Assembly: GCA_003331625.1 (NCBI GenBank)
Contig: QOPF01000003.1
Span: 1 to 64,000 of the forward strand
Direction of reading: 5' to 3'
DNA: 64,000 nt
Source: Gammaproteobacteria bacterium
Lineage (GTDB): Bacteria; Pseudomonadota; Gammaproteobacteria; Magnimaribacterales; AG-339-G14
Shown in pieces: positions 37,629-41,034 of the stretch; the stretch's first letter is position 1; each line of letters starts with the position of its first letter. The notes beneath the pieces were generated by a model. That model saw nothing but the letters and a program-made list of their open reading frames with translations. It ran no database searches and was not told the origin of the DNA. Both the position numbers and the translations under genes were made by a program.

Positions 37629-38498
37629 TTAAGAAGAAATGAATTCTTCAGCTTTTTTTCCATAAAGATCCCACCACCTATCTCCAAGGGCTTTGATAGA
37701 GTCTAAATTTCTTTTAGATGTATTATCAAATGAAGATTCAATTCCAGAAAGTTCTGAGTCTACTCTTAAATAATTTTCTTCAAATAAAGATTGTGCAATA
37801 ACGTGTTCAATATTCGACTCCATAAGAATCTGTATTATCCCAGCGTTTAGCCAAGCTAAAGATCCCCATTTTCTAGCTCTCCTTCCATCAAGTCTTTTTG
37901 AGTTATATCCTGTTCCAATACTGAGAATTTTAATATCTTCATTTGGCCACAGTTTTTTTGCTTCTGAGTAGGCAATCAATACAGGGTTATTTGTAGAAAC
38001 TGCTCCATCAAGATACCACTTGCCTTCTATGGACTCAGCAGGAAAATATGTAGGTGCTGCTGATGTCGCAGCGGCAACTCTTCTTGCAGGAAGATATCCT
38101 TCTTTCCAAGACTTAAACATTTTGACTCTTCTTTTTTCTAAATCAAAAGCTGTAATAATTAAAGGAACTTTTGAGGAGCCTAAATCTTCAGCACCAAAAT
38201 ATTCATCAAAAGTTTTTCTTTTTATTTTACCTGCATATTTAGATCCTAATATTCTGTATCTAAAAGGAGAAAAGATTTTTTTTAGATTTTCTTTTGAATA
38301 AATTTTAACTAAATCTTCGCCTTCGAGATCTAAAATAGAAATGGCTAAAGAAATAATACCTCCTGTAGAAGTACCAACTAGTAAGTCAAAACTCTCAGAT
38401 AGCTTTTTTGGTATTTTTTTATCAAGTTTGCTCAGAAAATTTGCTGATGCTAAACCTCTTACTCCGCCTCCGTCTATAGACAAAACATATTTAGTCAT
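37629..38498 (-). CDS. patatin-like phospholipase
   Basis: SIDGGGVRGL oxyanion motif, GTSTGG nucleophile, YLDGAVSTNNP. Confidence 0.88.
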   Translation of the reverse strand: MTKYVLSIDGGGVRGLASANFLSKLDKKIPKKLSESFDLLVGTSTGGIISLAISILDLEGEDLVKIYSKENLKKIFSPFRYRILGSKYAGKIKRKTFDEYFGAEDLGSSKVPLIITAFDLEKRRVKMFKSWKEGYLPARRVAAATSAAPTYFPAESIEGKWYLDGAVSTNNPVLIAYSEAKKLWPNEDIKILSIGTGYNSKRLDGRRARKWGSLAWLNAGIIQILMESNIEHVIAQSLFEENYLRVDSELSGIESSFDNTSKRNLDSIKALGDRWWDLYGKKAEEFISS

Positions 38499-38554
38499 TG
38501 TTATTTATAGGTAAATTAAGCATATTATCATCGAAACTATACTTACTATTTAAA

Positions 38555-39994
38555 ATGAATTCATTGAGTGCTAAAAAAATAGGGTTTTGGGTAGGTTTGA
38601 TTATTTTTATAGTCATTTATTTTTTACCTTCACCTTCTGATCTTTCTAACGAAGGCAAGCTAACCGCTGCGATATTCTTATTGATGGGGATATGGTGGGC
38701 TACTGAAGCAATGCCTTTATATGCTACGGCATTATTGCCCTTAATTTTTTTTCCTCTCTTGGGTATTGATCCTATTGGTATTGTAAGCAAAGAATATATG
38801 AATAAAGTCCAATTTTTATTCGCTGGTGGATTTATGATTGGAATTGCAATGCAAAAATGGGATTTACATAAAAGAATTGCACTTAACATTTTAAAATTCA
38901 GTGGGTTGCAAGCTAAAAATATAGTAGCAGCATTCATGTTAACGAGTGCAATTTTAAGTATGTGGGTTATGAATACTTCTACGGCAATAATGCTTTTACC
39001 AATAGGGATATCTGTAATTGCAGTGATAAATGAAACGGTTAAAGATATTGCACCCAAAGAAAGTAAAAACTTTCAATTTGCTCTTTTACTAGGAATTGCT
39101 TATGCAGCATCATTAGGAGGTATTTCAACTCCAATAGGAACTTCGCCGAATGGATACTTGATTCAATATGCAAACGATAACTTTAATCAAGACATTGGCT
39201 TTATAAGCTGGCTTGCAATAGGTTTACCAGTTACTTTGGTGATGGTTCCTTTAGTTTGGTATATTTTGACCTCTTTAATTTTTCCTATCAATTTTAAAGC
39301 TTCGCCAGAAACAAACGATAAATTAAAGAGCATGCTTAAAGAACTAGGACAAATTACTTCTGAGCAAAAAAGAGTTGCAATAATTTTTTCCATTACAGCC
39401 TTTTGCTGGGTTTTTAGAAAATTGTTAGATGACCTCCCTGGTTTATATTTTTTAGAAGACGCCGTAATAGCAATGATAGGTGGCATTTCATTATTTTTCG
39501 TAAGCTCTTCTTCTAAATCAGACTATTTACTCAATTGGGATGACTTGCAGCAAAAATTTCCCTGGGGGCTTATTTTTTTATTTGGTGGAGGTATGGCTTT
39601 AGCCTTTGAAGTAAATTCAACTGGATTAGCGTCTTGGCTTGCTAATTTGATTCCATCTGATATCAACCCTATTTTAGTAACGGCAATGATTATTTTATTA
39701 GTTTTACTGCTAACTGAATTGACAAGCAATTTAACTACTACTATTACTTTTATGCCTGTCATTGCAAGTGTGGGATTCAACTTAGATATAAATCCTCTTC
39801 TATTAACCCTGCCTCTAACAATTGTTGCAAGTTGTGCCTTTATGTTGCCTGTAGCAACGCCGCCAAATTCAATTATTTATGCATCAAATTTAGTACCTGT
39901 TCAACAAATGGTTAGGGCTGGAATTTTTATAAACATAATTTCATTTGCATATATTCTTCTTCTTTCAGTCTTTTATTACCCCCTAGTTATGTAG
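38555..39994 (+). CDS. DASS (SLC13/CitT-like) anion:sodium symporter
   Basis: WATEAMPLYATALLPLIFFPLLGI; LGGISTPIGTSPNG; polytopic. Confidence 0.85.
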   Translation: MNSLSAKKIGFWVGLIIFIVIYFLPSPSDLSNEGKLTAAIFLLMGIWWATEAMPLYATALLPLIFFPLLGIDPIGIVSKEYMNKVQFLFAGGFMIGIAMQKWDLHKRIALNILKFSGLQAKNIVAAFMLTSAILSMWVMNTSTAIMLLPIGISVIAVINETVKDIAPKESKNFQFALLLGIAYAASLGGISTPIGTSPNGYLIQYANDNFNQDIGFISWLAIGLPVTLVMVPLVWYILTSLIFPINFKASPETNDKLKSMLKELGQITSEQKRVAIIFSITAFCWVFRKLLDDLPGLYFLEDAVIAMIGGISLFFVSSSSKSDYLLNWDDLQQKFPWGLIFLFGGGMALAFEVNSTGLASWLANLIPSDINPILVTAMIILLVLLLTELTSNLTTTITFMPVIASVGFNLDINPLLLTLPLTIVASCAFMLPVATPPNSIIYASNLVPVQQMVRAGIFINIISFAYILLLSVFYYPLVM

Positions 39995-40011
39995 TAAAAT
40001 TTTGAAATAGT

Positions 40012-40236
40012 GTTGCACTAGGTTCAGCATCAGGGGTGCCTATAAAGTGCGTTTAATTATTACCCTGTGAAGGAGGTGGTCCAAATTAGTATTAACAAAT
40101 TAGCAGGAATTTCAGGGGATGCCTCTTGACAACGGGTTAAACCGATTCCGACCTTTTGCCGGTTCGCCCGCATAAGGTAAGAACAAAGTTGAAATACTTT
40201 TTCTTAAGCCCCGTCAGTAATGGCGGGGTTTTTTTA
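40012..40236 (+). ncRNA. candidate structured small RNA, family not identified
   Basis: GC-richer intergenic; three predicted stems (40015-40050, 40051-40142, 40151-40178) plus intrinsic terminator; no recognised RNA family. Confidence 0.7.
40206..40236 (+). terminator. rho-independent terminator of the candidate sRNA
   Basis: AAGCCCCGTC-AGTAAT-GGCGGGGTTTTTTTA, 7-bp GC-rich stem plus 7 T. Confidence 0.9.
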
Positions 40237-41034
40237 TTCGCTTAAATCGTGCCCCGAAGAAGATATGGTTCCACCATCGCAAGTGATAGTTTCACCAACT
40301 GTATAAGATCCTGCTTTAGAAGATAAATATATAGCCAAGCCACCAACATCCTCTGCTCTTCCCATTCTATGAACTGGATTTCTAGAAATTATTCCTTCAT
40401 AGTTATGTTCGACCGCTGCTCCAAGCATATCACTAGGAAATGGACCAGGAGCAATAGCATTCACTAGAATGTTTTCTTTTACAAGGCGGGCAGCAAGTAC
40501 CCTGGTCATGTGATGAACTGAAGCTTTTGATGCGCTGTATGGATAAGTTTCAAAAACTGGAGTTCCAATACCGTCTATAGATCCAATATTAATAACTCTT
40601 GCAGGATCATCCTGTGAAGCCGACTTTCTTAGTAAAGGAAGAAATTTTTGAGTTGAAAAAAATACACTTTTTACGTTTAAATCCATAACTTTATCCCAGC
40701 CTCTTTCTGTAAATTTGTCAATTGGTTCGGCCCAAGCTGCTCCAGCATTGTTCACTAAAATATCAATACTTTCTTCTAGAGACTCAACATCTCTAACGAA
40801 AGAATCAATTCCTTCTACAGACGACAAGTCAGATGGCAAGGAAATACATTGAGCATCATATCTTTCGGATAATTCTATTGCTTTGGCATCACAAATATCT
40901 GCTTTTCTAGATGTTATATAAACTCTTGCTCCATTTGCTAAATATGCTGAGGCTATCATTTCTCCTATACCTCTTGATCCGCCCGTAACTACAGCAACTT
41001 TATTTTTAACTGAAAAAATCTCATCAATTTTCAT
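40234..41034 (-). CDS. short-chain dehydrogenase/reductase
   Basis: VAVVTGGSRGIGEMIA, NNAGAAW, YPYSASKASV. Confidence 0.9.
   Translation of the reverse strand: MKIDEIFSVKNKVAVVTGGSRGIGEMIASAYLANGARVYITSRKADICDAKAIELSERYDAQCISLPSDLSSVEGIDSFVRDVESLEESIDILVNNAGAAWAEPIDKFTERGWDKVMDLNVKSVFFSTQKFLPLLRKSASQDDPARVINIGSIDGIGTPVFETYPYSASKASVHHMTRVLAARLVKENILVNAIAPGPFPSDMLGAAVEHNYEGIISRNPVHRMGRAEDVGGLAIYLSSKAGSYTVGETITCDGGTISSSGHDLSE

Follow-up and report, generated by a model that had tools for sequence, protein, structure and literature searches.

A small structured RNA encoded in the window (the whole 64,000-nucleotide stretch of contig QOPF01000003.1 that was analyzed) is best explained as a translation-coupled regulatory RNA, which would recruit ribosomes and in which the act of translation, and not the peptide produced, would matter. 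A probability of roughly 0.55 is given to this reading as a whole, which includes an RNA that appears to be specific to SAR86, independently transcribed and structured. The sequence supports the RNA family, its structure, the strength and conservation of its Shine-Dalgarno (SD) sequence, the open frame and the neighboring genes. From 5′ to 3′, the RNA is composed of a pseudoknot, an extended SD, a micro-ORF, a three-way junction, two hairpins and a terminator (Table 1).

Table 1. Positions of the RNA gene, its parts and its neighbors in the window
Feature	Position	Strand	Remarks
Na+:sulfate-symporter-type gene (PF00939)	38498-39994	+	upstream neighbor of the RNA
Candidate -10 box TAAAAT	39995..40000	+	RNA's own promoter, inferred from position only
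RNA gene	40008..40235	+	about 225 nt, 5′ end approximate; basis: conservation across genus, family and order, plus terminator
P1 hairpin	40015..40050	+	GCAC-UAGG (40015-40022) with CCUA (40039-40042) and GUGC (40047-40050)
Pseudoknot 5′ strand CAGGG	40031..40035	+	in P1 loop; covaries with 3′ strand across the order
Pseudoknot 3′ strand CCCUG	40063..40067	+	few nt 5′ of the SD; covaries with 5′ strand
Extended SD AGGAGGUGGUCCA	40071..40083	+	13-nt complement of the 16S 3′ tail, one G·U
Micro-ORF	40085..40129	+	opens with AUU; 14 sense codons (plain reading: ISINKLAGISGDAS); UGA then C
P3, closing helix of three-way junction	40106..40149	+	GGAAU (40106-40110) with AUUCC (40145-40149)
P3a hairpin UCAGGGG...CUCUUGA	40112..40129	+	codons 10 to stop; helix 2 of the model, 68% paired
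P3b hairpin CGGGUUAAACCG	40133..40144	+	helix 3 of the model and alignment
P4 hairpin	40151..40178	+	UUCG-type (UNCG) loop; helix 4, both-side changes in 9/10 pairs
P5 hairpin, loop UGAAAU	40179..40205	+	families f1 and f3 only, where the RNA stands alone
Rho-independent terminator, strong	40206..40235	+	aligned there in all family f1 copies
Short-chain dehydrogenase (SDR) gene (PF13561/PF00106)	40234-41034	-	downstream neighbor of the RNA

The earlier note had drawn attention to a 15-nt complement of the 16S rRNA 3′ end, AAGGAGGTGGTCCAA, located on the plus strand at 40070-40084. The location holds and the match is far above chance, but the true complementarity spans 13 nt, because the 15-mer ends on both sides in a base that does not pair (an A facing A and an A facing C); the single-base difference said to give a G·U pair was recovered within these 13 nt. 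It had also been proposed that the complement be compared with the genome's own 16S 3′ end and among homologs. The own 16S 3′ end is absent from the assembly and the tail was taken from the nearest relatives (...CUGGAUCACCUCCUA), so the 13-nt complementarity to the 16S tail of the lineage is stated on their sequence. The 16S ends in ...CTGGATCACCTCCTA in 32/32 genomes of the family where the 3′ end was found, all giving the 13-nt match, and CTGGATCACCTCCT is invariant in the 16S of all four families of the order; over the core, the anti-SD of E. coli is the same. Among homologs no drift was observed: all 65 SAR86 copies found with the model and read (46 first and 19 more), from four families, retain the core GGAGGUGRUC, in which a single base varies, between A and G, and pairs in either form with a U of the 16S, so that pairing is never lost.

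It was further verified that this complement is far longer than an ordinary SD. Its duplex energy reaches -24.2 kcal/mol, while the 918 predicted ORF starts of this genome have a median of -2.9 kcal/mol and reach -15.8 kcal/mol at best, so that the complement is the strongest SD in the genome by a margin of 8 kcal/mol; with the 13-nt tail, 12 contiguous pairs are formed, against a maximum of 9 at any ORF start. Additionally, AAGGAGGTGRTCCAA occurs only once on both strands of the 1.09-Mb assembly, and the same is true of AGGAGGTGRTC. Judged by its complementarity and by the start codon and open frame described below, the 13-nt stretch is a translation-initiation site, to which ribosomes would be expected to bind.

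SAR86 is an abundant and mostly uncultured marine group with genomes of approximately 1 Mb. The block containing the RNA is 91-93% identical in 13 of the 16 genomes of the genus and was found in the four genera of its family (4/4). A covariance model built from these genus and family copies (R1) traced the RNA through the whole order, and a second one built from a wider copy set (R2), used for the genome counts, identified it in 138 of 203 SAR86 genomes, one copy each, corresponding to 35/40 high-quality genomes and 21/22 genera; the two weakest of these 138 matches were a false positive (L273, genome G188) and a copy truncated where its contig stops (L274, genome G110). With R2, none of 365 other Gammaproteobacteria carried the RNA (0/365; 369 genomes were sampled from the class). 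A scan for the core pattern covered 84,980 species, and 99 of the 100 stretches recovered came from SAR86-named records or unlabelled proteobacterial MAGs, the remaining one, from a Rikenellaceae (L270), being a chance match. As far as these searches reached, the RNA is restricted to SAR86.

The RNA is an independent gene with its own terminator. A candidate -10 box lies directly 3′ of the stop codon of the upstream transporter gene, and the corresponding position in family f2 reads TATATAAT. The genomic context differs among the four families. In f1, the family of the window, the next gene is an antisense SDR in the loci read, without EamA; in f3, the neighbors vary between loci and no EamA gene lies downstream; every f2 and f4 locus read has an EamA transporter gene that begins past the terminator. 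A same-strand downstream gene is present in f2 and f4 (EamA) and absent in f1 and in several f3 loci. In f4, the EamA ATG comes after the U-tract, and its likely SD is part of the 3′ half of the terminator hairpin (L140-L145), an arrangement by which this hairpin could place both termination and translation of EamA under one control.

The candidate small RNA of the earlier note was confirmed as a structured small RNA gene, conserved, covarying and endowed with its own terminator. The stem pairs of P1 covary between genera (GCAC/GUGC, GCAG/CUGC, GCUA/UAGC, GCAAA/UUUGC), and at least 7 bp around its G-rich strand are formed in 98% of 100 distinct 5′ regions, compared with 67% of shuffles. The P1 loop likely forms a 5′ pseudoknot with the stretch upstream of the SD, since both strands change together, as CAGGG/CCCUG, AAGGG/CCCUU, GAGGG/CCCUC or CAGAGAG/UUCUCUG depending on the lineage; a pairing of CCCUG with the terminator, suggested by RNAalifold, was ruled out by the covariation of CCCUG with the P1 loop. 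The 5′ strand of P3 lies inside the ORF (codons 8-9) and its 3′ strand past the stop codon; this helix, helix 1 of the model, is paired in 99.5% of cells, with four of its five pairs changed on both sides, and the hairpin P3a is weaker outside family f1. Over 48 distinct sequences, the covariation score was 0.555 against 0.212 with shuffled partners and was destroyed by sliding the partners, in an alignment that was fitted to the structure of the model and therefore leans towards it. The P5 loop is UGAGAU in most relatives, and P5 of f1 and f3 contains a near-invariant AGUUGAGAUACU, a candidate interaction site; helices 5-6 of the model align P5 of f1 and f3 with the terminator hairpin of f2 and f4. 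The earlier suggestion that the SD is partly hidden by pairing with CCTCTTGACA corresponds to one option in a single-sequence fold, but the conserved structure pairs CCTCTTGA in P3a and leaves the SD between the 5′ pseudoknot and the three-way junction.

The near-cognate start codon AUU is used by infC and pcnB. It had been claimed that no ATG, GTG or TTG lies at SD spacing downstream of the complement, which is correct; nevertheless, an AUU occurs at 40085-40087, 8 nt past GGAGG, the normal SD spacing for a near-cognate start. The start is AUU in 57 and AUC in 8 of the 65 model-found copies, and never AUG, GUG or UUG; these start-codon statements rest on the model-found copies, given that the pattern-scan loci were selected for ATTAGTATT. 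In every SAR86 copy read, AUU or AUC stands 7-9 nt from GGAGG, within the 5-10 nt expected of a start. A GTG inside the SD was discarded as start codon, being out of frame at most spacings. In the infC gene of this genome, the conserved start region contains an ATG (ATT ATG GCA TTA GCA...; minus strand of G000 C4:120001-140000, L073, near 13419), for which reason the classical AUU start of IF3 is not evident and AUU initiation has no other documented case in the genome.

The length and end of the frame are equally constant. Exactly 14 sense codons were found in 113 of 114 distinct SAR86 loci (115 found, minus the chance match L270) and 13 in the other one, and all 114 end in UGA followed by C, a stop context that just 17 of the 778 long ORFs of this genome share. 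Pairing does not explain the UGA, because its outer P3a pairs open in many lineages. RF2-type frameshifting at UGA-C was rejected, as no conserved continuing frame was apparent by eye and the canonical prfB site lies elsewhere. A canonical RF2-type programmed frameshift site, AAGGGGGTATCTTTGAC, occurs on the plus strand of G000 C9:60001-79931 (L093, near 8690), in a gene that is presumably prfB.

No in-frame premature stop occurs in 69 distinct ORFs, although 26 stops on average, and at least 15, were expected from column shuffling (2000 trials), and 52 on average, never zero in 1000, from a simulation in which the observed changes were placed at random on a tree built from the sequence outside the ORF; neither null allows for dependence between sites or for constraints from dinucleotides and structure. 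In the real sequences, 61 and 126 stops occur in the two alternative frames. On the other hand, substitutions are distributed evenly over codon positions 1, 2 and 3 (84/82/76), and no pattern of amino-acid conservation was detected in the peptide. This equality indicates that the peptide is not what is conserved, the lack of a third-position excess speaks against purifying selection on it, and the evidence for coding therefore rests on the openness of the frame, its length and its stop. Selection would thus act on ribosome passage rather than on the peptide, or the fixed distance from SD to UGAC could instead serve as a structural ruler.

In the proposed mechanism, the 30S subunit would dock via the extended SD, and the 13-nt anti-16S stretch would set the weak AUU/AUC codon in the P site. 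The ribosome would then translate the 14-codon frame up to UGA-C, a weak stop context, so that the near-cognate start and the weak stop would impose slow initiation and slow termination, with pausing on the RNA, while transit would melt the three-way junction at P3, whose two strands lie on either side of the stop codon. The state of the RNA, free and folded or occupied by a ribosome, would in this case depend on free 30S, IF3 stringency and RF2, and the RNA would report or buffer ribosome availability, or IF3/RF2 activity. The presence of EamA after the terminator in every f2 and f4 locus suggests that the output there probably acts in cis on this gene, whereas in f1 and f3, where no EamA gene follows, it would have to act in trans, the RNA being either a regulator or a ribosome-holding reservoir; what the output regulates, and any target in trans, is speculative. 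A broader idea, advanced here only tentatively, is that of a housekeeping RNA shared by the order, on which ribosomes would be parked or by which they would be gauged: a minimal mRNA that combines the strongest SD with a near-cognate start and a weak stop, and in which translation itself, and not its product, would be the signal. When its three-way junction melts, such an RNA would read out free 30S, the stringency of IF3, and RF2. To our knowledge, no RNA of this type has been described.

The earlier note had seen no start codon at the complement and had suggested, as speculation, a switchable ribosome-binding or anti-SD-sequestering RNA such as a decoy or hibernation RNA. A start-less decoy is argued against by the AUU or AUC present in every copy and by the frame that it opens, with 14 codons in all copies but one (13) and UGA-C at its end. 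A decoy in a modified form, as a ribosome reservoir that titrates 30S by anti-SD pairing while translation is incidental or abortive, would agree with a pairing far stronger than at any gene, with the longer occupancy to be expected from a weak start and stop, and with a covarying pseudoknot a few nt upstream of the SD, which recalls 30S-trapping mRNAs such as rpsO/S15. This explanation is considered rather unlikely, given that a decoy needs neither a fixed-length open frame, nor stop avoidance, nor UGA-C in every copy, and that titration of 30S requires very high RNA abundance.

An improbable alternative is that the RNA is a cis-acting leader (attenuator) of EamA, retained after loss of the gene in f1 and f3. 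In the loci read, the gene following the RNA in f1 is antisense and the f3 neighbors differ, and the SD, ORF and structure are as conserved in these two families as elsewhere, with P5 in addition, whereas a relic would decay; the presence of EamA past the terminator in every f2 and f4 locus read, and the position of its ATG and SD in f4, are what such a leader would predict. Even less probable is a micro-protein gene, with the peptide itself as product and the RNA folds secondary: a frame kept open at fixed length and partly constant positions (I-S-I, G8, G-G and F14) are opposed by amino acids that change freely at most internal codons, by the absence of a third-position excess and by covarying helices that run through the ORF. 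A CsrA-titrating RNA of the CsrB/RsmY/RsmZ type is highly doubtful, for although this reduced genome encodes CsrA (G000 C7:83541-83690, L170) and GGA motifs are found within the SD, at codon 8 and frequently at codons 10-11, these are about three sites, the SD one unpaired, instead of many in hairpin loops, they leave GGAGGUGRUC beyond GGA, the frame, UGA-C and the pseudoknot unexplained, and Rfam gave no CsrB/RsmY-type match to the RNA apart from one RsmY match, far below cut-off, in one relative.

Known families were also searched with cmscan over the window and 20 distant homologs: no Rfam 15 family was found over the RNA at the gathering cut-off, and permissive searches returned only terminator-like or chance matches. 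6S RNA was discarded as identity, its match lying elsewhere (G000 C6:12494-12665, L015), and so was tmRNA (G000 C1:120490-120841; L060 490-841). The 6S-like RNA is divergent, with 42.5 bits, just under the Rfam cut-off of 46.4, and the tmRNA encodes the tag peptide GNKANYALAA. No paper on SAR86 small RNAs was found in the literature searched, and as far as Rfam and this literature show, the family is undescribed. An order-wide, single-copy RNA of SAR86 missing from Rfam is valuable in itself. If it is translated as read here, it would show that translation of a short frame can be selected for as such while the peptide drifts, with an extreme SD over a weak start and a weak stop; if true, it would offer a natural case for RNA sensing of ribosome availability or of the quality of initiation and termination.

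Several known systems share part of these features with the translation-coupled RNA proposed here. Dual-function sRNAs with a small ORF, such as SgrS/SgrT, RNAIII/hld and Spot 42/SpfP, are likewise standalone small RNAs with their own terminator and a short frame, which in the SAR86 RNA is predicted to be translated; they differ in that the SAR86 peptide is not conserved, its start is AUU/AUC, and the ORF is framed by the SD and the structure. Attenuators and translated leaders of the trp/phe type also combine a short ORF, transit-sensitive structures and a terminator, and f2 and f4 have the downstream gene; however, the SAR86 RNA contains no regulatory codon run and no downstream gene follows in f1 and f3, and Rfam leader models matched it only far below cut-offs (cmscan, 20 distant homologs). 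The 30S-trapping pseudoknot mRNAs, rpsO/S15 and alpha operon/S4, likewise combine an initiation site with a pseudoknot at its SD, but the SAR86 pseudoknot is located upstream of the SD and not around it, and no ribosomal protein gene follows. Ribosome-associated noncoding RNAs (rancRNAs; reviewed in PMC8938821) are similar in being small RNAs expected to act on the ribosome, an association that is predicted for the SAR86 RNA. We know of no rancRNA defined by anti-SD pairing and a conserved ORF. The closest details are found in genes with non-canonical starts: in Staphylococcus aureus, cvfC1 has an AUU start with a conserved extended SD, and ccpN and infC have AUA starts with an extended SD (PMC13009471), while infC and pcnB of E. 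coli start with AUU (PMC9410913). In cvfC1, ccpN and infC, as proposed for the SAR86 RNA, long SD-anti-SD pairing compensates a near-cognate start and both are conserved together (PMC13009471), but the starts of cvfC1, ccpN, infC and pcnB open real proteins, whereas that of the SAR86 RNA opens a 14-codon frame with a UGA-C stop in an independent structured RNA.
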